This document shows positions 4,704 to 60,336 of a stretch of DNA of 64,000 nucleotides, one piece after another. Positions within the stretch are counted from its first letter, which is position 1; each line of letters opens with the position of its first letter. The DNA comes from Tanypteryx hageni (taxonomy: Eukaryota > Arthropoda > Insecta > Odonata > Petaluridae): positions 98,372,207 to 98,436,206 of the forward strand of contig CM054116.1 of the NCBI GenBank assembly GCA_028673005.1, read 5' to 3'. Both the position numbers and the translations under genes were made by a program. Under the pieces are notes generated by a model that was not told the DNA's origin, searched no databases, and was given only the letters and a program-made list of their open reading frames with translations.

Positions 4704-6353
4704 TTGTATGATGATCGAGATGTTGAGAGAGTACATAGACTTCTCTCTGAAGGAGATGGACAAGAGAGTGAAATTGAATTTACTGATTCTGAAGGTAGTG
4801 AGTGTGATGTTATCCACGAGAGTGACTACAAGTTGGCATCAGAGCAAGAGGCAGAGGATCTTGAACATGAGTTTGATGACAGCATATCTGAATCAACAGA
4901 AGACAGTGACACTAGGACAAACTTTTATTTGGGGAAAGACAAAGTGAATGAGTGGAGGAAAACTAAGCCGGTTCAAAATGTGAGAACAAGATCTCACAAT
5001 ATTGTAACACATTTACCCGGGACTAAGGGACATGGCAAAACCACCAAATCTCATGAAAATTGCTTTTTCTTGTTTTTGGATGAATTTATATTGAGTAAAG
5101 TGACAACATATACCAATATTTACATTTAAAAAATTTCAGTTCTTTTTTCCCGAGATAGGGATACCAAGCCAACAAATGAAGATGAAATTAAAACTGTCAT
5201 TGGGCTTTTAATTCTTGCCAGTAGGTGCAAAGATCGGCACAGGAATTTAGACAAGCTTTGGGAACAAGACGGGCTAGGCATAGATATGTTTTATTCCACT
5301 ATGTCCTTGAAGTGTTTTAAATTTATTTTTAGATGGTTGCAATTTGACAACTACAACGACTGAAATGAAAGGAAAAATGTCGATAAATTGACGCACGTTT
5401 GGGAAATATTTGAGGCTTTTTTTGCAAATTTAAAAAAATATTACACCTTGGGAGAGTATGCAATGATTGACGAGCAACTAGTTGGGTTCAGGGGTAGGTG
5501 TCCATTACGCCAGTATATGCAAAACAAACCAGCTAAGTATGGAATCAAGATATTTTCAGATACAGGTGCCCAAACATGGTACACATACAATTTAGAGATT
5601 TATGCGGGAAAGCAGCCAGATGGCCCTTTTTGCAAATCAAATCGCCCAGAAGATGATGTCAAACCCTTAGAAGGCAGCGGTAGGAATATCACTTTTGACA
5701 ATTGGTTTATTAGCATACCACTGGCAAAGTATCTGATGGAAAAAAGAATTACGGTGGTTGGGACCATTTGCACTAATAAGAGGAAACTACCTCTTGATTT
5801 TGTGAAGACTAAAGTTAGATGCGTAGGAAGTAGCATTTTTGGATTTTTAGGAGATATTACTCTTACGTCATATGTTCCAAAAAAGAATAAAATTGTTTTA
5901 GTTTTTTCAACGATGCATCATGACGATACCATTGACCAAGAATCAAACAAACCAGCGAAGATTCACTTTTATAATCTTACAAAAGGAGCTGTAGATGTTG
6001 TGGATGAAAGTGTTAGAAACTATTCTGTATCTAGAAAAACTCAGCGTTGGTCTCTCAAAATTTTCTTTCATATGATAGATATTGCTGCGATAAACGCTAG
6101 AGTAGTGTACCTTACAAATAACAATGACCACACTGCTGATAAACCACAATTTTTGAAGCAATTAGGTATGTCTCTGGTGAAAGGAAATATTCTAAAAAGA
6201 TCTGCAGCAACCAATTTGCCAAGAACAGTATGTGAAAAAGCTTCCAAGTTCTTCCCACATAATGAATACCGTAGGCCTTTGAAAAGGAAACAGTCAACCT
6301 CATCCCACTACAAAGTCTGTCCTAGGCACAAGGACTGCAAAACCAAAAATTAA
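4704..6353 (+). pseudogene. piggyBac transposase, two in-frame stops
   Basis: The whole protein lies in one reading frame from the ATG at 4704 to the TAA ending at 6353, interrupted only by TAA at 5127-5129 and TGA at 5361-5363. The order is an acidic N-terminus rich in Glu, Ser and Asp (about the first 75 residues), the DDE_Tnp_1_7 core, and a short basic C-terminus. The catalytic aspartates of the family are present: MIDEQLVGFRGR (first D), NITFDNWF (second D) and KGAVDVVDES (third and fourth). The C-terminal Cys-rich finger is reduced to a short Cys/His remnant near 6310-6350. With only two nonsense changes and no frameshift, the copy is recently dead. An intron reading of the first stop was tested and fails, because the 46-base candidate would shift the frame. 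Confidence 0.9.
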
Positions 6354-10407: not shown

Positions 10408-12300
10408 CTAGTTAACATTATATGAATCAAGATTTATCTCAAAAGATAAGAATCTTTGCTGACGTTTTGTCTGTCCATGGCTTATGGGATGGGGAAGTAT
10501 CATTTTAACGTCAGATTTTAAAACCATAGATATATCTGGCACACTTGGAAATATTAATTTTCCTTGACATCTCAAACTCTTTCGTAGAAACGTCACTTCA
10601 CACTCAGATGAGTTTTTAAGGCAAGACAACACTTTTCCAATATAAAAAACTTTTTCTTTCCTTTTAAATTGAACTAACACATAGTTATCAGCAATGGGAT
10701 CATGAGAAAAATGAAGGTGACGAGTTGACTTGGGCTCGCATGTGTCTGTCTCTTCCTTGTCACTAAATAATTTTGTTCTAATTTTCTTGCCAACCTTCAA
10801 TGACAAACTAAGGGATGTTGTTGGGGTTTTCCTTTTTCTCATTTCCAAATGCATTTTCTCTGGAGTATCGGTTGCTATCATGGTTTTCCCCTTCCTCCTC
10901 CTGTTGTTTGAAATTCTCGGCTTTGCTTTTGGAAACCCTCTGATGTCTTCAGGGCTTAAATAGGTTTTCATAGAAGGAGATATTTTGAGCATAATTTCAG
11001 GTGTATCAGGATTTGTAGTTTTGTTAATTCCTGATTGGGAAGATCCTGTTACATCTACAGGTTGAGGTCTATCACTTATGGAGCTGGGTAAGAAGTCATC
11101 TTCTGTAAATATGTGCCTATCAAAAGGAAATATGCCTGTTTTCTTGAATGCAGCTGTTATGTTCAATGGTGTCATAGCTCTTGGATAGGCAATGCCAACA
11201 CAAAAAGCCACATTGTAAATAGAAAATGTTTCACCAGGATGTGACATCATCCATGAATCTACAGAAGCATTGTAATATGTTTGAAATGGTTTCAAAAGAC
11301 CTACGTCAAGTGGCTGAAGTTTATTTGTGCAGTGCGGTGGTAGGGTCAGCACAGTTATACCACTTTCTTTGCACAAGTCAATAGATTCAAGAGATAAATG
11401 GCTTTGGTAGTTGTCCATAATAAGTAAGGCAGGATTTTCCTTGGAACAATAAGTCTGTTTGATGAAATGTTGAAGGACTTGCACAAAACATTCAGAATTC
11501 ATCCATCCCCCTTTGGTTGATAAGCCCAAAGTTCCATTAGGTGCCCCTGTAATCATATGCTCTTTAAAATGCACCCTCGGAAAAACCATTGCAGGTGGAA
11601 CACTATTTCCAGCAGCACTAACAATGCAGCATGTTGTGACAAGAGTTCCACGTTCAGCACTGGTGACTTTGCTCACTTGTTTCATTCCCTTTTGTGCTAA
11701 AACTTTTTGAGAGTTTTGTATGGTTAAAGTTCCTGTTTCATCCAAGTTGTAAACACGCAGTCCATTGGAAAAATTTTTATGACGTTTCATTACGTCCTCC
11801 AGTTTATCAAAAAATAAAGTCACATTAAATTTGTTAAAACTTGAAGCTCGGGATAAACTACACCCTTCAGGAGTCCGTAATGACAATGATGGAAATCTTT
11901 TGCGAAATCCTTTCAACCAATCAACTGATGCTAGCTTTTCAACGTGCCACTGTTTAGGAATAGTGACACTATTTTTTGTTGCCAGTTCATAGGCTAGCTG
12001 GCGGCAATCTTTCAGTGACAATCCATAAAACATTTTCGAACATGTAACAAGATAATCCATGAGAGACTGCTCCAGTTCTGATGGAAAAATCTGCTTCACT
12101 CTGTAGTTTGGGCACATTCTAGCTGATGGGTTATTTTTGTACTTTTGAACCTATCGGCTCAAAGTCTGAAATGCTACACCTTTTTCTTTAGCAGCTGCCC
12201 TAATGCTTTTGTGATGCTTGATGACCAGCTCTGCTGCTTCCCTCATAGTGGCTTCAGGGAATCTCCCTACTTCCTTGTCTGATTTCTTCACTCTTGGCAT
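10408..12300 (-). pseudogene. pogo/Tigger-like transposase, one nonsense codon
   Basis: Read from the ATG at 12298-12300 (MPRVKKSDKEVGRF), the protein runs in a single frame to 10408. The only break is a TAG at 12151-12153, in the sequence TLSR(stop)VQKYKNN, where relatives of the family usually have Tyr. Domains in order are an HTH_psq DNA-binding fold (about residues 10-50), a CENPB-type HTH (about 75-130, with WLKGFRKRFP), and a DDE_1 catalytic core with aspartates in YNLDETG, LIMDNYQSH and KLQPLDVGLLKP. A long basic C-terminal tail of about 200 residues has no clear domain. Such enzymes cut and paste elements into TA sites, and the TA flanks agree. An upstream in-frame ATG at 12363 is less likely than MPRVKK. 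Apart from the one stop the gene is intact, so it is recently inactivated, or the stop is suppressed or a sequencing error. Confidence 0.9.
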
Positions 12301-48400: not shown

Positions 48401-51400
48401 ATTTGTTGAAGAGTCACAATCAGATAATATGGCAGCATGTCATAAAGTTATGGCAATTGCATTTGAGTTCTCATATTAATAACATTAAATGCATCACAAT
48501 TCTTCTAAGTAATACTTTTTCTAATTTCAAATTTATATTGATGGATCGGTGTTAAATTGTTTATTAAGATCTTTGTAAATTTTTAGGCTTATTCTTACTA
48601 CATACATTGAAATTATCTCATAGAGAGAAAAAAACTTTTCTTATAGCTATACATATGTTCAAGTGCCAAAATCGCAATTTAATTCTGAACTTCTTAAAAA
48701 TAAAAGTAATATATACTGTTTATTCAGAGATATGATGCAATATTTTCCTGGAAAAAGGTTTCCTAAAATTATGTGACATCTCAAGGTACCCAGATTGAAA
48801 TCCTATGTAAGAGCTGCTTAGGTATAACGACTATTGCTACAAGCTACATTAAAATATCGGAGTGGAATTTGTACTATTCTCTGAGGAAAGGAATGGAGAT
48901 TCTAATTTTTATTGTAGAATTTTGCTTATCAATTATATTTCTTCGAACTTTGCATAAACAATTGCATTTTTGTAGTTTTTATCACTCATTATGAATGTGT
49001 TGCCATCGCAGCGATTGTTGTCGGATTCGGTATAGTCAAGTACGTACATGCGTTAATTTTGCCACACAAATATGTGTGATCAATTTAGTTTTTCGTTCGA
49101 ATGTATTTGTAATATTTTATAATTTTAAATTATTAAAATTGGAGAACAAAGATCAACATGTCCATGGTGATTTTAAAGCTAGTATTAAAGGCAACATAAG
49201 TACATATTAAAATAAATGATTAAATGGAAAGTAGGCATCATAAGTTGTTTAGATCATCTTGTTAATAATGTAAAAATGTACAATTCAAGACTAGTTATTA
49301 TAGTTCAGTATTTTTAATTTAAATTTCTGATAATTGTAAAATTAAAATTTTTAATATATTGTATTTATTATCTACAATATTTTTCTGTATAATATGCACT
49401 CCTAAAAATAAGATCATTTCTAGTTTTAAAATTTTTTCTTGTAAAAAGATGTTTGAATAAGGACACAAGATTAATCAGTGGTTAAAGAACATCAAAAAGT
49501 AAGTTAATTATTGGCTGGAAAGCATCTATTAGTTTAATAACTTTTGATAATATACCATAATTACTCACATATAAGCTGCACATTTTTTTCAAATTTTTGT
49601 CTCCAGAATGAGGATGTGGAAAGAAGGAAAACAATCCGAAATTCCAAAAATGTGAGATAGTCATTAAAATTCACCAGGAATTTGCTAAATGTCTGGGTGA
49701 TTCAATGCACAAGATGTAATGCATAAAAACATTACATAATCGTAGAAACTTTTCTTGGGTACACAACCGGGTCAAAGTTTGATCTAGGATCAACGTTTCG
49801 ACGTCTGACTCTGCCATCTTCATCAGGATGTCTTAAAACGTGTTTTGTCCGCTATATATACTAATTCTTAGACCGTAACGGTCTGATACGTCCGCCCACC
49901 AATCAGGTTCCGTCTTTCTCCCACCAATCAGGTTCCGTCTTTCCGCCCACCAATCGCATTGCGTCTTCCTTCCCCGATTTTTTGGAGGATCGGTTCCCAG
50001 GTTCTGCTGAGCGAGTAGCCCAAGTCCCTGTTGATTTTATTGTCCCCAAGACGGATCTCAATGGTTTCTTTGACCAACCGGTCCCAGAAACCTTTGGTAT
50101 GTTGTAATCTTTTTGTTTTTTCCCAAAAGATCTTGTGGTCGTGGCTGAGGCTATGCTCTGCCACCGCGGATTTCTCGGGCTGTCCCAACCTTATGCACCT
50201 CATGTGCTCTTTTAACCGGGTTTTGATGGTGAAGCCAGTTTCCCCGATGTATGAGGCGCCGCACTCGCATGGTATACTGTAGACCCTCGGAGCCTTTAAT
50301 CCGAGATAGTCCTTAGCTCGGGCTAGTTGGTCTCTAAGTTTCCCTGGTGGTTTGTGCACTGTCTTGATACCATGCTTTCTCAGTATCCTTGAGATCTTGC
50401 CGGAGAAAGACGGAACCTGATTGGCGGGCGGGCGTATCAGACCATTACGGCCTAAGAATTAGTATATATAGCGGACAAAACACGTTTTAAGATATCCTGA
50501 TGAAGATGGCAGAGTCATCCGTCGAAACGTTGATCCTAGATCAAACTTTGACCCGGTTGTGTGCCCGAGAAAAGTTTCTACAAGCAATCCACTGGGAAAG
50601 CACCAGATCCTATTACATAATCATCCCAAAAAATTAAAAGGGAATGATATTATTATTATTGATGGCATAGTTATAAACGTCTGAATTTGGAGGTGATCAC
50701 TATGGTAACGTCAGGGACCTGCGGGAAAAATGCTGTATTTTTGCAGATATCAAGGCATCGTCACAGTTTAGTCTCATATTCTGATAATTCTTTCATGAGA
50801 AACATTTCGGTAGTGTTTCTTTCGGTTCAAAAGTCATTGCAATTTTTCGTCAATTACCACTTTTTGGGTAAATAGCTATGCATTCTGAGAATTTTGGTAA
50901 TGTTATCCTTTGTATCCTGGGAAATGAATATATTGCTGATCGGATACAAATGATTCACCAAAACACCTTATTGTCTTATATATTATTTAGAGGGTAGGTT
51001 TGTATGTGCGGTTCCCTTTTTCGTGAAAACGGAAGAAAGAATCCCTTTAAATGGGGCATGGTTGAAAAGCACAGATTCCCGTGAGGGTGCTGTGGGTGTT
51101 CATTTTTTTCTCAAGTTCGTTGGTTCGATTCCAGATACGTTTCACTTTTCCATTTGATTAACATGTAATCGGCTGGAATCTGATGTGTAGATCTTTAGTC
51201 TTTTACATTTTTAAATGTCTCGGAATTGAGATATCATCACAGAAATTGGACTTTTATGCTGAAAAGAAAAAAGATTCTTATCGTTTATTCATTTCTCTAA
51301 TTTGAATTTGTTGAAATTTTAAGTTTGCAGTAGTATTTTTCCCGATTTTTCACATTTCAAAAGGAAGTTACCAAGGTTACTGGCATTGTTGTCCTCAGTG

Positions 51401-54400
51401 TTTTCAGTGCATTTGCACTTAGCTTACACTCAAATACATGCATGAAGAACAATGATTGATTGAAAATTAACGTGAAAGATTAACCTTTTGAAATTTGGCT
51501 TAGACTTCAAGACTTGAGATATAAGGCAGTGTTTTTCAACTGGGGGTTTGTGCATGATTTCTCAGGGGTCCGCTAGTTGAGTAGGACAAGATGTTGTTTG
51601 TTCCTGTGCATAGGTCTGGTTACTATTTCTGAGTGAAAAAAACAAGACATTGAATGAAAAATGTATGATTATTTCATGGAGAGGGGAGAAATTGTGGGAC
51701 TTTGTAGGGGTCCTCAACTCTAAAAAGGTTGGGAAACACTGATATAAGGAACTGTTAAAACTTTTGCTCTATAAGTTGGGTGATTGATATCACAAAAGTT
51801 TAGTATCATAATTAAAGATAAATAAAGATATTAACTATATAGAAGTGGTTATAAAAATTCATTTGTATATAATCACTTATTCATAAATTAATCGAAAAAC
51901 TCCATGCAGTAATTGGGCTGGTCTCAGATAGTTATAAATAATAACAATAAGAATTCTACAGAATGAATGCAAGTGTTTAAAGTTGTATGTACTGCATAGA
52001 ATACCTCTTTTGGTAGTGAAAATGGTTTCGCAAGAATCTGTGTATCTAAATTTTAACTGAAATTGCTTATCTGCATTTAAAACTTCATTGTATAAGAAGC
52101 AGCATGATTTTAGGGCAGTTTTACAACAAAAATACACTGGAACAATTCGGTATCTTCATTATTATTATTTTTTTATTCATTAAATCATTTTTATGTGTTA
52201 GTCTGCTTATACATTTTATATTTTTTACATAAAGCAATTTATTTTATTTTAGTCACATAAATAAAAATTACCTGCAAAGTTTTATGCAATTATTATTATA
52301 TTTTATGTAAAAAAATTGAATTATCATTCTGTAAACTTTAAAAGTCAAATACTTAGGTGATGATGATAAGGTAACCTATGTACAAAGCTTTGGGGGGGTG
52401 GCAATTTTTATCTCGCCTTAGTGCAGCCAAATGTATATGGATATATTGTATATATGGATTTCCACTGTGTTTGAATATTGGTTTTTTAATCTACATCTTA
52501 TGCTCTTCTCATCTGCTTTTTTCTGCTATCCTGTATGGACAAAATCTCAAAAATATCTCGCAATTCAGTTTTCTGATCTTAGATATTTTCTGTGAAATTT
52601 CAACTTGGTTTTTTCATTCCGTTTTTCTCTTTAAGTGTTGTGCTTTGCATTTCAGAGGGGATATTTGAGGATTGGAATCCAATGAAGGAAGATTATAACC
52701 AATCTAGTATTACTTACAATAATGTCATAACTGACGATGCCAGTGCCTTAATTGGTTATCAAGCCAAGGACGAAGAAAGGATCTGTAAGTTCTTTGCCCA
52801 ATCTGGTCACTGCTATAAGGGAGCTGCTTGCAGGAAAGAACATAAATATTTAAGGCCAGGTAATGGGATCTCCACGAATAAAAATATTCTGGTTTTTTGG
52901 GCACTTGTTGCTTTTCGTCCTTTATTTTCACATTTTAATTGGTTAATTTTTACTTTTACAGATGGTTGGACAACTGACTGCCAATTAGTGTATGGAAATA
53001 CATTCTCATACTTGTCTTTACCCATATCGGGTTCCTTTGTAAAATTGCACGTAATGATTGTGACGGATATCTGCAAATTTTATGCTGTATTAGAGGATTC
53101 TTGGTGTTACAAAGAAACTTCATGTGAATGTAAGCAAGAATTATTGAAATATATTCTGTAATTTTTTAGTTTCTTTACTTATTCTTGACTTGATGTTACA
53201 GTAGAGAATTTCAATTAAATTTTTATGCATTACAGATCTTCCAAATGAAAAGTGGGAAAATGAGACTTTAGACAATTTAATTGATTTAATTAACTCAAAG
53301 GAAAATGTTGCCAAGTTGCAAAGATTAGACATGCCACCAGGTGTGGGTGAGATTGTATTGTGTAAAATGCCATCAGTAAATTTATACTATAGGGCTCAAG
53401 TGCTGGATACAAACTTGGAAGAAAATGAATTTCTAGTAAGTGCTTTTGTCTTTGATGTAGAAGCTTGTTTAAAATTAACAAAGTTGTGAAATATTTATTT
53501 TGCATTTGTTAAAACTTTGGTGACTGGCCATTTATATCCTTCCTGACCCCTGGGGATTGGGTCTTTTAGAGAATCACTTCTTGTTATCACACTAATGCAT
53601 TTAAAATATCATAACTTGTTTAATTTTCAATATTTTTGAATGAAATTTGCAAGTTTTATTTATCAATGATGCTCTGATATAGTTATGCTTAGTGATTGAT
53701 GCATGTCTCCTTTTGTAGCAGATTCATGCAGCTAATCAAATATATCCAATGTCCTTCCTAATTTTTTTTTGTTGTACATTCCTTTTGGATATATCTTGTT
53801 TCCTATGTCTACAAACTTCTATACTTTTTCATGTCACCATAAAGCCCTTCTAGATCATCTTTAGCTTAGGTTCGCATATTTTTTTTAATCTTCCTCGTCA
53901 TCAAGTACAATCTTTGCTTTCCTCTTCGTCTGGTTATAGTTTATATTTTCTATCCACTAGCTCCAAAATTTTTACTTTAAATCAATGCCCCTAAATCAAG
54001 GTCATGTAACTGCTGTACTTCATCCCTGTTGTGAAGATTTTTTTTAAATTTCAAATTAGAGTACCTAATTGCCTGTCAAATATGACGGGTATGTGTGAGT
54101 TTATAAATTCCACTACATTTCATTTGAGCTGCATACTCCTGCCACATTCTTCCATCCCAGAAAATGCATAAATAAAACCCAGTTTTGAACTATGTACTGC
54201 ACAGGGACGTAACTAGCCTCCCAACTCGGGGGGGCCAGCATGAGCTGTAGGGAGGCCAGCATGTCTCAGAATAAAAAAATACAATAAAATAAAAATTTTA
54301 ATACAAAAACAAATGTTTTAACTAATATTTTCTGCACTAGTCACACAAATGAAAGTTATTTTTCATTAAGAACGTAAACAAAATACTTTATTAATTCATA

Positions 54401-57400
54401 TTTTTAAGTATAGCATTAAGCAGGGAGATCAAGGGCTTAAAAAGGGGGGCTAGGGTCCTCCCAGGCCCTCACCTAGTTACATCTCTGTTGTTGTACTACT
54501 TCTTACCTAAATAGGTTATCATCAAACTTGTTGTTCTTCAATATAAATACTAAACAATTAAAGAAACAGTTTCCTAGCTTTGCCATTTGCACTAAACTAA
54601 ATAATCTGTTCTCACACATTTTAATGCTGTTTTGGAAATGCCTACAGATTTGGCACTATTCAATACATTTTCACATTCATAACACTATAATGTACGTATA
54701 TTATACAATGACTTTACTAACAAACAAAGCCTTTTTTAAATGTGTTCATTTTTTTCATTCAATTCATTATGATGGTTAAAATCTAATTATTGATATAAAT
54801 GCTTTTTCTTTCTAAATTGAAGTCTGTTATTTACTGTTGGAAAATATAAAAGTACATTCATTAGTGTAAGTTAAAAAGTGTATTGCTGGATTTTTATTAT
54901 AAGGCACAAAATATCTGCAGCAACTTTAACTCATAGAGAAAATTTGACAAAGTTTAAACCATCATTGTGGAGCAATCGCAAGTAATTTTCAACTAAAGAT
55001 AATTTTTCTGTTGTAAAAACATATTTAACCACTCATCTGGGTATGCCGTATATAGTATATGTCATGCTGTTTTCTCGGCTGTTTGCTATGGGTATGCCGT
55101 AATATTCTGCCGCGCAGCTTCTCCTGCAACTAGCTGCATCCTTTTAGTTTACTGTCTCGGCAGTAAATGGGCCTCACTTCTTTATTTGGAAAAGATACGC
55201 TTCTCGTATCTAGACTCTGACATTGCTTTGCGGGTTGCATTTCCGTTACCGTAATTTTAAAATTAACAACATTTATATGCTATTTATAATATTTTTATTT
55301 TTTAATCGCTTAGTAATTGTGTAAATTTTTAATTTCTTTATACCATATTTTAGGAATTTGTGTTCATTAAATGTTATTAACAAATTAAATTTTTATTGTA
55401 ATAAGAAATATATATTAACATTTGAATTCATGTATTGTGGTAAAAATAGTTTAAGACAATATTTTTAAGAATAAACAACTCAAATGCTGAATAATTTATG
55501 TATTTTTTAATTGATTTACATTTTGATTCACCTCAATAGCAATTTAAATGCCCACCTCTGGTTTTGAAAAATTAAATACCCAGATGAGTGGTTAAACAAA
55601 CATGTTAAATTAGAAATTATTAAAAGCAAAATTAATTTAATAAAAAAAGATAAATAAGGAGATGTTCAAAAGATGGAGATCTCTGTCATTGGTCATCAAA
55701 GTTTTAAGAGGCGAGAGCGAAATACAAAGTGCTTCTTTAATTATATAATGACCTCGGTCCTAAGTAAAAATATCTCCTCCACAGCTCCGAAAGTGATTCA
55801 AATGTTAAATCAATGATACATTGTCTAGGGCATAAAGCTAAACCATGCTTCATTTCTATATAGTTTTTATGAAGGTTTTTATTTTTCCTTCAAGGTGATC
55901 TTTGTGGACATAGGTATGACAGACTGGACAGATGTGAAAAATTTACGTCAAATTGAAAAGAATTACCTACACTTACCATTCCAGGTATTTCCATTTTGTG
56001 TCTCTTATGCTATGAATTTGATTGCATTGAAGTTAAATGATAGCTTAACTGCTTAATAAAACTTTTTAACTATTAATTTTAGTAGAATATATGAATATGA
56101 TTAAGGATTAATTGCCCAAAATAAATGTGACCATTCTTATTCATCTATTAAATTTGTTTTACTTTTTCTGCTCACACTGAATAACAAATATTTTTATTCA
56201 TGCACTATATTATCATTTATGTGAATTTTTCTCTTCTGCTGTGTTTTTTGCACTTTTGTTGTACAATTAAAGAGTTTTTACATCTGTTGTTAAGAACTTA
56301 AATTTTGGGACTTTTTGGTTTCTTGGGAATTGCCACGTTAACCCATTAGGGACGGAATTAAATGTCAGAAAATAGCCTATTTGTTACCTTTTTGGTAAAA
56401 TAAAGGTAAAGTACTCCTTTAGCCAAACAATTAGAGGGTTACAACACCCAATGCATTTCGCCCACAAGATGGGCATCGTCAGGGGTAAAAACCTGTTTCA
56501 ACAGTGACTGGGAGCCAACTGCCAGTCACTGTTGAAACAGGTTTTTACCCCTGACGATGCCCACCTTTTGGGCGAAATGCATTGGGTGTTGTAACCCTCT
56601 AATTGTTTGGCTAAAGGAGTACTTTACCTTTATTAATCTTAGCCAAAGTTATTGAGCTACTATCAATTATTTTTTTGGTAAAAGTCCGATAGAAAAAGAA
56701 TGTCAATTCTAATCTGCTTGAAACTTTCACTGGGCCATACTAAGTGTCTATATTAACTATTAAAGTACTTACCGAGGCTTTTTATTCCTTAATTATTGGA
56801 TATTCAGATGGAATTCTCTGAAGCAAGTGTCAATGCACAGCCCTTTTTCACAAACAGAACATACAAAAATTGTCCTCTTTCTAATTCCTTTTCCCCGGCA
56901 TACCACACATTCTTTATGCAAAAGTTTATTCTTCTCATTTCTTGTCACTTGATCAGGATAGTGGCACTCTCCAAAATTATGTGAAGGAGGAACTGTAGCT
57001 CTATGCCCACGTGCCTTTCTGCTACTGTAGCCTCCAATGAGGTCTCCGATTATATTCAAATAGAATTTTTTAAGGGGAAAAGTTGGCTTATTGGTAGCTT
57101 GTTTGTAGTAGATATAAGAATTTACTACCGTCCTATTTATTAAATCAAACATCAGTCTATGCCACCACTTTTTTGAAGGAATGTGCAAACTGTAGTAGCT
57201 ACATAATTGATCGTTTCGATCTAATCCTCCCATGAATTGATTGTATAACCTCACAACCTCAGGACAGCACACTTCCACCTTCGACCCATCCTTCTTCCTT
57301 TTCGCACACTGCATTGGGTATGTGGGTGAATCGTAACCCGATGACAAAAAGACCTTTTGTCACGCCAGCCTAAGGAAGCGAGTGGGGCGGAGGAGAGCCA

Positions 57401-60336
57401 CTCACAGTCCCCTTGGATACTTTGCTACCAATTCTTTGGGATAATCGACATGGTTGGTCTTTGAGGTCCCTATGGCTCTCAAACCTTTTTTGGAGAGTTC
57501 CATAAATAGATCTGGTGACGTAAAAAATCTATCGCAAATAAGGGTGCAGCCTGACCCAAAGAGAGGCTCTGCAAGTTGCATCATGACATTTCCACCCAAA
57601 CCAAAATTATTCTTTTTAATTGTCCCTTTCCCTGTATATAATTCTAAATGAAAAACAAATCCCGATGTTCCATCTGCTCTTCCCCACCACTTGAATCCCC
57701 TTTTGATGGGTTTCATCGGCATATATTTTTTCATTACAGAGCGACCAGTAAATTTCACCATCGCTTCATCTATTGTCTGAAACTCAGAAAAGTTATAATA
57801 TTTTTTATAATTGCAATTCAAACTATCCAGAATAGGTCTAATTTTGTAGAGTTTATCAAAATCTTAGCTATCTTGTAGAGGCTGCCATGAATTATCATTT
57901 ACATAAAAATTCTGCAAAATTGACAAAAATCGATCCCTTGCCATGATTTCTGATGCACCTGGTACATTCAGTGCACTATTTGTGGACAAATAGTCTTTCA
58001 GGCTTGGAAGATCATGAAATCCCATCGTAAAAAATACACCTAACCAAGCTTTCAACTCATCTAATGTAAGATCTTCCCAAATATTTCCACCTCTGCCTGC
58101 AGTTGACATTTTTTGCGAAGCATACAAATTAGTCTGCTTGACGCAATGGTCAGAGTAAAAAAGGGCTAAGTTTAAAAACACGTTAAATGGTAACGCTTAA
58201 GGAAAACGTGTGCAACTTCACAGGACGAAACTTAAAACTGTCTGTAAGCTGCTAGCAAAAAAGGAACTACAGATAACTAACATGCACCACACAAGAGGGC
58301 AGAAGAGGACGGTACCCTAACACCACCGTGGTGGTGTTCCGTCTCTAATCGGTTAAAATGTGCAAATCAAAATTGTTATCATAGTCAAAGGCATTGTTTA
58401 CATGTTGGGCATTTCTCTTAGAGATACATATGAAAATTGGAAATATTTGTTACGTACAGCCAGATTTCTATTATTGATATTGTATTATTAAGATGGTTAA
58501 ATATTCTTTTAGAAAAAATCTGGCTGTCTTATTGAGTTATCAATCTGAGATTTAAAAAATAAAGGGTGTTCATTTTATCCCGGCTCTCACCATGGCTGGC
58601 TGCTAGGGGGGGGGGGGGCAATGGGGCAGTTGCCCCCCTCTGGATCAGGCCTGTATCAAGGGAAAAACAGGCACAGCACACTCTGATAGTGAGATGTTTC
58701 ACTCAAAGTAGCCCATAAGAGTGGGGCCTGCGATAAAATAAACACTGTGTACCATTTGGTTTATTATGTTTGGAATGGTATTTTTATCATGTTAAAGTAT
58801 AGCCTGATAAGGGTATTAGTGGGGGAGAGTGCATTAGTTATAACCAAAGTTATCTGAAATGAATAAAGGTGAACGTTAGTTATTAAAAATGTAAATTTAT
58901 TAGCCGTATAACAGAATTTACACTTGAAGAATTATACAGAAACTTTAATTAATGCTGATGTTCAGCTTTCACTTTCAATTCCTTTACAAATTTGAAGTAC
59001 ATGGAGAGTGAATCAGTAATAATCACAGGTTTATTATTTTATAATTAAAATTAGTGATATTTGAGAATCATTGCTTTGTTAATTTGCTGTAAACCAACAT
59101 TTGCTTTAAATGTTTTTTTTTCTTCTTTAGTATTTACTTTTTTGTTTATACTTCTTTTTTTATTAATTATAGGCTATAGATTGTGAATTGGCTTACTATG
59201 GTGCCCCTGGCAACATAGATGGAGTAAGAAAAATGGAAATCATGAGAAAATTGTCAAGCTTGATTTCATTAAAATCACTGGAAGCTCATGTTGTAAGGAG
59301 GCAAGTATAAACTATAATAAATGGTATGGGTTTTCCATTATGGATGCCACTAAAATTTACAGTTCTATTATGTTTTAAAGAAAGTTTTATAAATTTCTAA
59401 TAAATAAAATTATGCACATTTTTATTAAGAGCAGTCTTAATGAAATTGATAATCTGAAGCGTAACTTGGTGGGACGATTCCATAATTATAAATCAGGGAA
59501 ACATAAGAACACTGTATTGATCCACATATAAAAAGTTTAATTTAGACTGGTTTCGTTACAAGGTAACATCCTCAGGTGACCATAAAACAGAGACCATTCA
59601 AATACTATATCCTAATTCCTGTCAAACGGCAGGAACTTAAAAATTAGGATCAAAGAACATAAAAGTCGAAATTAAAATATTTTTTATAAGTGGATCAATA
59701 CATTGTTCTTCAATTTCCCTGATTTATAATTAAAGAGCAGTCTTGATTTTTATTGGGAATTACCTTACTATGAGTGCAATGGGTTATTTCTATCAAATGA
59801 ATTACAGTGCTAACAATTTTACTGAAAGACTAATAAATGTAAAAATACAAAAATATTTCTAAATATTGAAATCATTGAAAGAGCAGAAAAAATTACATGA
59901 CTAGATTCCTTGGGCTGTACAGCCAATAATTTCCTTAAAAAATTGTAGAAATTTGCATTATAATTTTATTGAAAATTTTATCACAATGTTTCCATACCCA
60001 TGAGCTCCCAGGTACAGAACTTGGGTACATCTGCTCAACCTGCTTTCCATCACCTAACCTCATTCCGAACCTAACCCCAGTTATCCTTTCAATCTTGCTT
60101 TAATCATTTGTAATTTCTTTTTTCGTGTTCTCTGCTTTCTAATATTCTCGCAGATATACCTTTCAAAAATCCATTCAAATGTTACTGAGCTTCACTTTGA
60201 ATATTTATTTATTTGTTTTTCAGCTTTACATCAATAAATAAAATGGTTGTTGAAATTTTTGACAAGTCTGGTGTAAGTGTTGGTGAGATGTTGAAAGCAG
60301 ATGGATATTTAATTGAATTACCTGATATATATGATA
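34497..60336 (+). CDS. Tudor-domain and C3H1 zinc finger protein, piRNA-pathway type (3' end open)
   Basis: Sixteen exons join without a stop to 796 codons: 34497-34675, 35124-35249, 35332-35467, 38170-38386, 38924-39077, 41194-41344, 41440-41592, 41793-41926, 47595-47779, 48205-48255, 52656-52859, 52962-53129, 53236-53435, 55895-55984, 59173-59300 and 60224-60336. Introns 5 and 15 need GC donors. Domains: a first degenerate Tudor region (about residues 31-147); an extended Tudor (about 240-478) with WYRAKVL and VLLVDFGNRIEVP; a CX8CX5CX3H finger (Cys539, Cys548, Cys554, His558) after EDWNPMKEDY; and a third extended Tudor (about 590-796) with YYRAQVLD and FVDIGMTDW. Tudor proteins of this kind bind dimethyl-arginine tails of PIWI proteins in nuage. 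Only the middle domain keeps the DFGN core. No DEAD helicase is seen, which argues against a full TDRD12/Yb. The family is sure, the exact orthologue is not. The final exon could be at 61167 or 62987. Confidence 0.85.
36095..36304. mobile_element. MITE, second copy of the 20791-21105 family
   Basis: Ends GGTTTGATATAAGACA and TATCTTATATCAAAT. The interior matches the RRP7A copy in inverted orientation (GGGACTGCCGCCCCCTTAAA), but the minisatellite units are absent. Lies in Tudor-gene intron 3. Confidence 0.85.
36355..36514. mobile_element. Short MITE with inverted ends
   Basis: GCAAAATTCTTTGGCAGAAT at 36355 is matched by the complement ending CCAAAGAATTTTGC at 36514, with about 30 bases pairing. 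No coding sequence. No target duplication recognised. Confidence 0.75.
36558..38085 (-). mobile_element. LINE remnant in Tudor-gene intron 3
   Basis: Read on the - strand from about 38080: the end of an APE-type endonuclease (IKSDISDHFPIL), the linker (YNSLKRHYRHLLNTTKRSYN, NKSQEIWKIIKNSKLH), RT fragments (HDSLQLGVFPSIFK, LASCQNGFWQNKSMTTASYE) and, after a deletion, the post-catalytic CTKFLCIYLDTHLRCDTHI. There are many frameshifts and the catalytic FADD block is deleted. It appears to be the same broad type as the LINE at 9837-18035. Confidence 0.85.
36782..36856. mobile_element. hAT-type MITE end inside the LINE
   Basis: The block with GCAGAAAAGGTTGCCGACCC and CCTG is one end of a hAT MITE; it is followed by GTCTAGAG. 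It sits where the LINE lacks its central RT, so the loss and the insertion may be connected. The other end is missing. Confidence 0.55.
39600..40384. other. Part of Tudor-gene intron 5, unassigned
   Basis: 39620-39860 has a transposon-like texture (GATGGCCAATG ... GGCGCAATTTTTTTGGTGG), but no paired ends were found. The rest is AT-rich without a gene. Confidence 0.35.
40385..40955 (+). repeat. Dispersed repeat, copy B (long form)
   Basis: The first 240 bases repeat 5-245 and the last 95 repeat 7325-7425. Between them are TTTCACGTTGACCTGATTAA and a short CA run, all non-coding. It is the longest copy here and could be an entire non-autonomous element. Confidence 0.75.
42379..42424. repeat. 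(TA)n(CA)n microsatellite
   Basis: About ten TA units followed by about ten CA units in Tudor-gene intron 8. Confidence 0.95.
42665..43976. mobile_element. piggyBac-type MITE with palindromes (TTAA flanks)
   Basis: TTAA at 42661-42664 and 43977-43980 flank the inverted ends CCGCTTCCCTGA and TCAGGGAAGCGG. The interior holds a perfect 30-bp inverted repeat (43333-43362 with 43381-43410), a 52-bp tandem duplication (43547-43598, 43599-43650), and two perfect palindromes sharing CCGAGTATACTCGG near the right end (43900-43919, 43946-43959). No transposase. The right half is markedly richer in GC than the intron around it. Confidence 0.9.
44005..45033. mobile_element. Non-autonomous hAT element
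   Basis: The ends TAAAGTGACCAGATTTC and (inverted) TAAAGTGACCAGATGTC are flanked by TGTAAACT (43997-44004) and TGTAAACC (45034-45041), seven of eight identical. It starts 25 bases after the TTAA of the preceding element and contains a second hAT MITE. Confidence 0.85.
44181..44458. mobile_element. Short relative of hAT-2 nested in a hAT MITE
   Basis: Ends CATGGGTGTCCTGCTGG and CCAGCGGACACCCATG, with the internal GGGGGGCAACTGCCC signature also seen at the left end of hAT-2 (12981) and at 58610. No coding. The flanking 8-mers do not match. Confidence 0.7.
45705..47322. mobile_element. Tigger-like non-autonomous element in Tudor-gene intron 8
   Basis: Ends CAGTAAAACTCCTCAAAGGC and, inverted, CAGTAAAACTCCTCCAAGGC. 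TA precedes the left end; the right TA is not preserved. A Ser/Asp/Glu-rich - strand remnant lies at 45948-46226. There is no catalytic domain. Confidence 0.8.
47780..49730. other. Tudor-gene introns 9 and 10 (first part), no other gene
   Basis: Apart from exon 10 at 48205-48255 this is AT-rich intron. Short open frames are not supported by codon content or homology. Confidence 0.5.
49782..49842 (-). ncRNA. Hammerhead ribozyme, sense copy in PLE-1
   Basis: On the - strand: CUGAUGA (49826-49820), one extra A, a stem II closed by GAUG and CGUC, GAAA (49799-49796), the palindrome ACGU serving as stem III, and U as the cleavage residue. Flanking strands can pair as stem I in short segments. A stem III of 2-3 bp implies activity as a dimer, as known for Penelope hammerheads. 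Confidence 0.7.
49928..50401 (-). pseudogene. Penelope GIY-YIG endonuclease domain, N-truncated
   Basis: The open frame begins inside the arm boundary with SGKISRILRKHGIKTVHKPP and continues KLRDQLARAKDYLGLKAPRV, YSIPCECGASYIGETGFTIK, TRLKEHMRCIRLG, and EHSLSHDHKIFW to a stop at 49928. The Y..I..C.C....YIGET.. core, the Arg/Lys-rich KTRLKEH helix and the following HxxxxxH are those of the endonuclease fused to reverse transcriptase in Penelope-like elements. The RT itself is not in the window, so this copy could not move alone. Confidence 0.9.
50484..50546 (+). ncRNA. Hammerhead ribozyme, inverted-arm copy in PLE-1
   Basis: CUGAUGA at 50497-50503, extra A at 50504, stem II GAUG (50505-50508) with CGUC (50520-50523), GAAA at 50524-50527, palindromic ACGU at 50527-50530 and U at 50531. 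Stem I can form from AUC/GAU, GAU/AUC and GUUU/AAAC segments across small internal loops (50484-50496 with 50532-50546). It lies antisense to the element's own ORF. Confidence 0.7.
50650..51518. other. Part of Tudor-gene intron 10, unassigned
   Basis: No exon seen. GGTTCGATTCC at 51122-51132 is a good B-box word, but no paired A box or SINE boundary supports an RNA gene. Confidence 0.4.
51527..51741. mobile_element. hAT-type MITE, 215 bp
   Basis: A perfect 8-bp duplication ATATAAGG (51519-51526, 51742-51749) flanks CAGTGTTTTTCAACTGGGGG and GGTTGGGAAACACTG. Non-coding. Confidence 0.93.
54202..54487. mobile_element. hAT-type MITE in Tudor-gene intron 13
   Basis: Ends CAGGGACGTAACTAG and, inverted, CAGAGATGTAACTAG; a G-rich interior next to each end. 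The flanking duplication could not be fixed. Confidence 0.65.
55029..55591. mobile_element. piggyBac-type MITE (TTAA flanks), 563 bp
   Basis: TTAA at 55025-55028 and 55592-55595; inverted ends CCACTCATCTGGGTAT and ATACCCAGATGAGTGG are perfectly complementary over 16 bases. GGGTATGCCGTA is repeated at about 55040 and 55090. No coding sequence. Confidence 0.92.
56437..56493 (-). ncRNA. Hammerhead ribozyme, left arm of PLE-2
   Basis: Mirror of the right-arm ribozyme: CUGACGA (56482-56476, - strand), extra U, stem II from GCCC and GGGC, GAAA, palindromic AUGCAU and U. The two arm differences fall in the stem II loop region and leave the core unchanged. Confidence 0.75.
56540..56596 (+). ncRNA. 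Hammerhead ribozyme, right arm of PLE-2
   Basis: Stem I is formed by GGUU (56540-56543) with AACC (56593-56596) and ACCC (56547-56550) with GGGU (56584-56587). The core is CUGACGA (56551-56557) and one extra U. Stem II is GCCC (56559-56562) with GGGC (56570-56573). It is followed by GAAA (56574-56577), the self-complementary AUGCAU (56577-56582) as stem III, and U56583 before the predicted cut. All conserved core positions of the hammerhead are met. Confidence 0.8.
56793..58181 (-). pseudogene. piggyBac transposase (PB-2), N-truncated and frameshifted
   Basis: Three open stretches lie in one frame. 58181-57864 carries DLTLDELKAWLGVFFTMGFH. After a TAA, 57821-57402 carries QTIDEAMVKFTGR (first catalytic D) and LICDRFFTSPDLF (second D). 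After a segment readable only in a neighbouring frame (57401-57348), 57347-56793 carries FMGGLDRNDQLCSYY (last D pair), WWHRLMFDLIN and the C-terminal Cys-rich finger CVVCRGKG..CSVCEKGLC. The acidic N-terminal region is absent; only 170 bases separate the first stretch from the element end. The catalytic residues survive but the gene is dead. Confidence 0.9.
58591..58700. mobile_element. Fragment related to the hAT-2 terminus
   Basis: CATGGCTGGCTGCTAGG, a long G run and GGCAGTTGCCCCCCTCTGG match the terminal signature of hAT-2 and of 44181-44458. The other end was not found. Confidence 0.6.
59439..59732 (+). mobile_element. Short Penelope-like element with one hammerhead (PLE-3)
   Basis: A perfect 12-bp duplication AAGAGCAGTCTT (59427-59438, 59733-59744) flanks a 45-base tail (59439-59483), a left arm (about 59484-59534) and its diverged complement (about 59680-59732), both with TTATAAATCAGGGAAA and GTATTGATCCAC. 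There is no coding sequence. The tail is on the left, so the element is inverted relative to PLE-1 and PLE-2. It lies in Tudor-gene intron 15. Confidence 0.85.
59545..59575 (-). ncRNA. Hammerhead-like core in PLE-3
   Basis: On the - strand: CUGAGGA (59575-59569), one extra U, a perfect stem II GUUAC-CUU-GUAAC (59567-59555), GAAA, then ACCAGU and C, giving the classic GUC cleavage triplet. Stem I pairing is weak, so this copy may be inactive. Confidence 0.55.

Follow-up and report, generated by a model that had tools for sequence, protein, structure and literature searches.

Palindromic Penelope-like insertions in Tanypteryx hageni probably arise from two internal primings on transposon RNA

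Three insertions in one gene of Tanypteryx hageni (PLE-1, PLE-2, and PLE-3) are products of three families of Penelope-like elements, each probably made by two internal primings whose cDNAs were joined head to head; two of the three are mere folded-back remnants. The copying of Penelope-like elements into DNA is poorly understood, and the relatives of these insertions in the genome record how it took place. A sequence-only reading of the window, i.e., the whole stretch of 64,000 nucleotides that we analyzed, had described three Penelope-like insertions, each with a target duplication, inverted arms, a tail on one side only, and a hammerhead core. All of these features are present (Table 1), and the repeats, arms, and tails support the end structure that the three insertions were said to share.

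The exact 11-bp repeat ATTACATAATC flanks PLE-1, whose arms span 180 nt (95% identity); the tailless end of this copy (L049) lies at arm position 180. PLE-2 is flanked by a 12-bp repeat, and its arms (116 nt, 97%) are separated by a 4-nt gap. The flanks of PLE-3 form an exact 12-bp repeat, or 14 of 15 positions if extended, and its arms span 52 nt (90%). With the boundaries kept fixed, 200,000 random placements produced an exact flanking repeat at a frequency of at most 2e-5 for every repeat length between 11 and 15 nt. Other elements are found in the same window. Between PLE-2 and PLE-3, a broken piggyBac-type transposase occupies the minus strand at 56793-57863 (Pfam DDE_Tnp_1_7 plus a zinc finger), and a second piggyBac-type frame of 329 codons lies at 5364-6353 (DDE_Tnp_1_7, E = 5e-44). 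An open frame of 580 codons at 10408-12150 has a Pfam DDE_1 transposase match, and an inverted repeat apparent by eye at 55028-55596 (ACCACTCATCTGGGTATGCCG ... ACCCAGATGAGTGGT) is perhaps a MITE-like element.

Table 1. Features of the three insertions, by position in the window
Feature	Positions	Strand	Evidence or remark
PLE-1 target duplication, left copy	49731..49741	.	exact 11-bp repeat
PLE-1 left half: one putative cDNA, tailless pseudo-LTR arm, then ORF 3' end	49742..50401	-	arm 49742-49921
Hammerhead core, PLE-1 left arm, stem I to stem I	49789..49829	-	descriptor match at 49826; predicted cut after 49792
C-terminal GIY-YIG endonuclease fragment of Penelope ORF	49928..50401	-	homologs, alignment
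PLE-1 right half: second putative cDNA, arm plus tail	50402..50611	+	arm 50402-50581, tail 50582-50611
PLE-1 pseudo-LTR TATA box	50463..50470	+	TATA at arm position 62
Hammerhead core, PLE-1 right arm	50494..50534	+	descriptor; predicted cut after 50531
PLE-1 ORF start: AUG within hammerhead stem II, arm end, tail, single open frame	50506..50611	+	
PLE-1 target duplication, right copy	50612..50622	.	exact 11-bp repeat
PLE-2 target duplication, left copy	56389..56400	.	flanking repeat
PLE-2 left half: tailless putative cDNA, proximal start to RNA 5' end region	56401..56520	-	inner border approximate
Hammerhead core, PLE-2 left arm	56445..56487	-	descriptor
PLE-2 right half: putative cDNA from distal start, arm plus tail	56521..56671	+	tail about 56635-56671
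Hammerhead core, PLE-2 right arm	56546..56588	+	descriptor; predicted cut after 56583
PLE-2 target duplication, right copy	56672..56683	.	flanking repeat
PLE-3 target duplication, left copy	59427..59438	.	right copy 59733-59744
PLE-3 tail-bearing half plus hinge region	59439..59663	-	tail 59439-59482, arm from 59483
Hammerhead core, PLE-3, single	59542..59578	-	descriptor; predicted cut after 59545
PLE-3 opposite arm, tailless	59664..59732	+	

To characterize the hammerhead cores, we used a descriptor consisting of CTGANGA, zero or one extra base, a stem II of at least 4 bp, and GAAA. It matched five times on the two strands of the window: twice in PLE-1, twice in PLE-2, and once in PLE-3. Each match carries one extra base, whereas in 60 random sequences of matching composition the means were 0.28 matches overall and 0.15 matches with one extra base. 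The extra-base motifs that had been read in all three elements stand, but PLE-3 holds a single match rather than a pair, and stem I of its core, read from the sequence, is unpaired at the predicted place. In PLE-2 and PLE-3, the extra base is the U of an AUG that we take to be formed by A9, the extra U, and G10.1 in hammerhead numbering; the PLE-1 cores have an A there, ahead of the AUG. From AUG to predicted cut, the five cores span 26, 26, 27, 27, and 25 nt. We also applied the descriptor, with zero to two extra bases allowed, to 16 further loci, seven of which form one family and one of which (L079) is of the PLE-1 type. As a predicted ribozyme motif, it matched 12 of them, representing about four families, always with one extra base and in 10 of the 12 as CUGAAG-AUG.

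Library models gave a different picture. Rfam called no hammerhead in the window at gathering threshold, and none up to E = 10 in both element-bearing stretches, a search run without a Penelope hammerhead as positive control. The scores are thus at background, an outcome that the sequence-only reading had itself named as counting against it. Penelope hammerheads are reportedly the subject of Cervera 2014 and Lunse 2017. The region of helix III in our cores is 2 to 3 bp long and self-complementary in PLE-1 and PLE-2, and failure of the Rfam models would be expected if the cores represent a minimal Penelope-type variant without helix III, the form that a review ascribes to Penelope hammerheads (PMC7761336). 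Single-strand folding of the cores yielded neither unusual stability nor a hammerhead fold. Stem II is paired in 395 of 399 cells across the arms of 40 PLE-2-type copies. Selection on the PLE-2 hammerhead was considered and dropped, as variation at core sites (0.032, or 0.011 without CpG sites) compared with that elsewhere (0.029) gave no evidence of it. The PLE-2 hairpin at 56466-56567 scored below gathering with the Rfam families mir-5985 and mir-4524 (E of about 1e-8 to 1e-9), probably an artifact of its length.

The sequence-only reading held that only PLE-1 keeps coding sequence. This is correct for the endonuclease: a search with the PLE-1 fragment gave 106 homologs (E <= 1e-3), several of them matching GIY-YIG in Pfam, and the fragment itself is not called by Pfam. 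However, the arm end and tail of PLE-1 are coding as well. In a full-length copy of the PLE-1 type (L079, together with L061), 845 codons are open, and the arm end and tail correspond to codons near the start of the ORF; in the window, AUG, arm end, and tail lie in one open frame. The tail of the PLE-1 family is the start of the ORF. Elsewhere, at G000:C1:231217962-231222803, two 828-codon frames begin head to head at one place, which suggests that both cDNAs copied the whole ORF there. The viral contigs that we searched contained no relative. One contig in a Pseudogulbenkiania metagenome-assembled genome (L001) holds Penelope-type sequence with broken frames and no descriptor match; it is probably eukaryotic contamination of the bacterial assembly.

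All three insertions have relatives in the genome. Querying the 1.68-Gb assembly with the whole PLE-2 palindrome, tail included, we scored 40 of 1,646 first-look candidates. On the left side, the match began no more than 3 nt from the end of the element in 39 of the 40 copies; on the tail side, it stopped no more than 3 nt from the end in 33 and 9 to 18 nt earlier in the others. An exact flanking repeat of 11 to 15 nt was present in 31 copies when a few bases of slack were allowed at the borders. Other copies with the same outer boundaries thus exist, as the sequence-only reading required, and a one-off truncation confined to this locus is ruled out by the many genomic copies of PLE-2. For PLE-3, positions 1 to about 171 recur: 39 other loci were scored, and most match to position 163-171. 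With 83 to 90% identity over the tail-side half (40 copies scored of 459 candidates), PLE-3 is the product of an older family; no coding source for it was found among these copies.

The two arms of a PLE-2-type copy resemble each other more than they resemble the arms of other copies. Divergence was 2.2% within copies and 5.2% between copies, a difference matched by none of 5,000 reshufflings. Six variant sites were concordant within copies in 36 to 39 of 39 to 40 cases, and only the last two sites, at which the left arms end, distinguished the two sides. Meanwhile, the hinge between the arms varied: 36 copies could be parsed (4 of 40 could not), and they contained 34 distinct hinge cores. Because arms share variants within a copy while hinges vary among copies, the PLE-2-type palindrome was probably made anew at each insertion rather than passed on as a unit, and replication of the palindrome as a unit is rejected by the hinge and arm tests. 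Some hinges recur. L010 has the hinge of the window copy and is its nearest relative in the 40-copy set, so hinge inheritance is conceivable for this pair. L021 has the hinge of L030, to which L044 is close; L021 is not the nearest relative of either, and a short TTGAAAC common to both sides could account for the joint. The shared variants themselves could also be explained by gene conversion between arms or by self-priming. Arm concordance in the PLE-1 type (0.0157 against 0.0156) gave no signal either way.

A second PLE-2-type sample, drawn with the 88 nt past the ribozyme cut (40 scored of 1,076 candidates), added 37 new copies, and 10 of these read through upstream past the arm. We aligned the ten upstream stretches, one of which was partly different, and translated four; the resulting frame contains YIG..TRFKEH and resembles the PLE-1 endonuclease (E = 4e-8 in a single comparison). 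Pfam found no GIY-YIG domain in the 108-residue endonuclease piece, only one sub-threshold match to another family. Upstream extension of one copy (L210, which overlaps L102 and its arm) revealed a reverse transcriptase frame (RVT_1, E = 1e-14) followed by a GIY-YIG frame whose match (E = 5e-4) is just below the curated Pfam cutoff; on the other side lies the translation of the inverted arm. The extensions L208 and L209 contain a GIY-YIG frame, with no reverse transcriptase frame recognized, and L208 additionally holds a second, inverted endonuclease copy. By these sequence relationships, the PLE-2 arm is the pseudo-LTR of a coding Penelope family, and PLE-2 a scrap of it. An endonuclease of GIY-YIG type is thereby found for PLE-1 and PLE-2, and for PLE-3 it is assumed.

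These results bear on the satellite class that the sequence-only reading had proposed, in which short ribozyme-bearing RNAs would be mobilized in trans by a Penelope enzyme and spread as palindromic units. Such a class would fit the numerous short copies with constant outer ends and their own target repeats. It would also fit the frame that follows the hammerhead AUG, which, unlike that of PLE-1, is closed by TGA in 36 of 40 PLE-2-type copies; this frame being closed, we did not use a reading-frame test of PLE-2 as support. Yet the PLE-2 arm is part of a family with reverse transcriptase and endonuclease (L102/L210), more than a quarter of the second sample (10/37) reads past it, and hinges mostly differ between copies. 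Since PLE-2 derives from a coding family, a satellite is not needed, and we regard one as quite unlikely.

If the insertions were instead made by internal priming, their outer ends should show where copying began. We collected PLE-1-type copies by their endonuclease rather than their tail (151 matches; 150 of 8,833 candidates scored) and examined 31 loci (L049-L079). Both ends were in view in 11, including the window copy; L079 was left out of this count, as its arm on the tail side continues into the ORF. In all 11, one end fell at arm position 177-185 (73 to 81 nt past the AUG) and the other at 205-218 (101 to 114 nt), with exact flanking repeats of 7 to 16 nt. If ends were independent and equally likely, one proximal and one distal end in 11 of 11 copies would have a chance of about 1 in 2,000. 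Among the 37 PLE-2-type copies, which were selected by their tail, the opposite arm was found in 17, of which 16 had a repeat, and in 20 there was none in the stretch. The end pattern agreed in all 16 copies with repeat and opposite arm, with the proximal end at arm position 116-123, about 72 to 79 nt past the AUG. Two of these 16, L123 and L124, lie 124 kb apart with one target repeat in common and are probably one insertion duplicated along with its surroundings. In a third family (L084 type), also tail selected, 20 of 37 copies were paired and 18 of these had a repeat; all 18 proximal ends were 76 to 83 nt past the AUG. Of the two paired copies without a repeat, L183 forms the central part of a larger head-to-head insertion. 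Nine copies of this type had no opposite arm in the stretch (L171, L173, L178, L182, L184, L188, L193, L203, and L204), and only L173 among them has a flanking repeat at the expected place. Given these nine and the 20 of the PLE-2 type, not every insertion need be double; some may be single.

In three families, then, one outer end lies about 72 to 83 nt after the hammerhead AUG and the other about 101 to 115 nt after it; the ends of PLE-3 in the window are 87 and 131 nt past the AUG. The tail of L079/L061 consists of ORF codons, and we thus read the tail as the part of the ORF that separates the two starts. An unlikely alternative is that a single cDNA reaches the 5' end of the RNA, turns, and copies its own strand into the inverted arm. 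Fold-back of this kind would explain why PLE-2-family arms share variants, and self-priming has been proposed for rotifers from palindromes at inverted junctions with an antisense template (PMC3846280). It does not account for a second arm that repeatedly ends at the proximal start, about 72 to 83 nt past the AUG, without running through the tail, and the Anolis enzyme is described as using two adjacent starts with the tail between them (PMC11167929).

The inner ends should reveal where copying stopped. With a query of the 80 nt past the cut, we scored 40 of 569 PLE-1-type candidates and retrieved 39 stretches, three of which overlap earlier loci. Of 57 halves ending in the pseudo-LTR, 15 ended at arm position 92-95, 9 at 97-98, and 8, from 6 copies, at 131, exactly the first base past the predicted cut. 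Against a uniform expectation, these piles have values of 4e-12, 3e-8, and 2e-9, although halves of one copy are not independent and the intervals 92-95 and 97-98 were chosen after looking. The counts come from an ungapped walk and include misplaced ends, and alignment disagrees in some copies (e.g., L138, L146, L162, L168, and L170). Before sampling the L084 family, we fixed the prediction that inner ends would lie at one upstream point and at the cut. Its upstream part held: in 37 copies chosen at 100% identity over 78 nt, 22 of 49 halves ended at 99-102, which is 29 to 32 nt after the first T of TATATAAA at position 70. As to the cut, just one of the 20 paired copies agreed (L199); both its halves end exactly there, with one filler base. 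In the PLE-2 type, 10 of 27 short tail halves ended within 4 nt of one another, and one of 37 tail halves (L114) ended at the cut. The inner end of the PLE-3 opposite arm is 3 to 4 nt away from its predicted cut.

In both the PLE-1 and the L084 type, inner ends thus gather some 30 nt downstream of a TATA box; no TATA box was established for PLE-2. From this spacing we infer that the piles mark transcription starts, and the TATA box together with the inner ends of related copies would place the start of the PLE-1 RNA at about 50494. PLE-1-type and L084-type mini-copies that reach only as far as the inferred start are without the TATA box, a further point against a satellite. By their outer ends, mini-copies also lack the ORF stretch beyond about +115 (+131 for PLE-3). 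With TATA box and ORF stretch missing, and with the Anolis enzyme requiring the first 172 nt (PMC11167929), mini-copies are probably dead on arrival. The piles also speak to a third alternative, in which palindromes are inserted whole, deletions at the hairpin center then diversify them, and gene conversion keeps their arms alike. Perfect hairpins are unstable, and the hinges do vary. Nevertheless, the inner ends of three families accumulate at fixed points, and the piles persist in the L084-type sample, where 100% identity over 78 nt leaves little time for repair. We therefore consider insertion of whole palindromes very improbable.

The ends at the cut raise the question of which RNA served as template. 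At the PLE-1 joint, GAT or GATC is often shared and a GATC palindrome begins there, so microhomology may add to the pile at the cut. Cut-site ends are common in one family only, and microhomology could mimic them there. Ribozyme-cut RNA as a general template rule was rejected, since just L199 among the paired L084-type copies and L114 among the PLE-2-type halves fit it. Because L084-type and PLE-2-type inner ends are rarely at the cut, most templates look like uncut RNA, with cut templates occasional.

Together, the ends point to the following sequence of events under the reading that we prefer, two internal primings with head-to-head joining. The element's enzyme would cut both target strands with a stagger of mostly 11 to 14 bp, which would become the target duplication. 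Each target 3' end would prime reverse transcription inside the transposon RNA, near the start of the ORF rather than at the RNA end, one at the proximal start (about 72 to 83 nt past the AUG) and the other at the distal start (about 101 to 115 nt). Both cDNAs would be extended in the direction of the 5' end of the RNA and then joined head to head, often via a few matching bases. A start in the first pseudo-LTR of the RNA would soon reach the transcription start and leave a palindromic mini-insertion such as PLE-2, whereas a start in the downstream pseudo-LTR of a tandem RNA would copy the ORF. The copies, their boundaries and duplications, the PLE-1-family tail at the ORF start, the inner ends at fixed points, and, in the PLE-2 family, the variety of hinges and the variants common to both arms are direct observations; the two primings, the template 5' ends, and the order of events would follow from them. 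Mini-insertions look like a frequent result of priming inside the RNA. By tying tail and inverted arms to one mechanism, this reading makes testable predictions for purified enzyme. As described for Anolis, the start site does not differ between the two target strands (PMC11167929), so one tail per copy is not predicted.

More tentatively, one tail and same-variant arms might result if a complex of two enzymes read one RNA twice, once from the distal and once from the proximal start. In this possible extension, the hammerhead would remove a leader with cap and AUG, turning messenger into template, and some insertions would come from cut RNA. Inner ends at the predicted cut in PLE-1-type copies, L199, and L114 favor cut templates. 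Against them, ribozyme mutants in Anolis insert equally well, cleavage by the ribozyme was seen there only when protein was present, and the RNA reads described included none that ended at the cut (PMC11167929).

The closest comparison is with Poseidon of Anolis, in which the ORF begins at hammerhead stem II and the AUG-to-cut distance is 26 nt (25 to 27 nt in our cores). As described, its enzyme starts 111 to 118 nt into the ORF, with the tail between two starts, and cuts and extends both strands; the outer-end distances found here match these starts. Unprocessed RNA is its main substrate, in agreement with the mostly uncut templates here (PMC11167929). Unlike the Anolis case, the window has no full-length or tandem copy, and many sampled copies are palindromic mini-insertions. 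The Penelopes of Adineta vaga likewise have inverted pseudo-LTR pairs and head-to-head junctions, with target duplications of 8 to 10 bp and an optional 31-bp tail that continues the ORF (PMC3846280). They are reported at very low copy number (PMC3846280), whereas each of our queries returned 459 to 1,646 first-look candidates, about 40 of which were scored; with so many copies, outer and inner ends can be counted. Animal retrozymes are also small and non-coding, with a type I hammerhead and a possible dependence on Penelope, and are described as having head-to-tail repeats, circular RNA, and a canonical hammerhead (PMC7229834). In contrast, the elements here are head to head (arms are inverted in the window and in 40 PLE-2-type copies, which were chosen by whole palindrome), their hammerheads are minimal, with 2 to 3 bp in place of a canonical helix III, and PLE-2 comes from a coding family.

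Several components have thus been published: 5'-truncated Penelope-like insertions with possible inverted pseudo-LTRs and short extensions (PMC8969392), sequences captured between solo pseudo-LTRs with target duplications (PMC3846280), and a tail of ORF sequence between starts, in Anolis and Adineta (PMC11167929; PMC3846280). Judged by titles and the beginnings of abstracts, the open-access papers searched included none on palindromic Penelope mini-copies with these end rules; other papers may well describe them. Pseudo-LTRs with a one-sided tail and target duplication occur in the window and in the PLE-1, PLE-2, and L084 types, and the ORF encodes a GIY-YIG endonuclease in the PLE-1 and PLE-2 families. 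The elements thus belong to a known kind, and what deserves to be followed is the set of end rules, for which one genome with many copies per family provides a readable record of where copying starts, where it stops, and that the halves of a copy form a pair.
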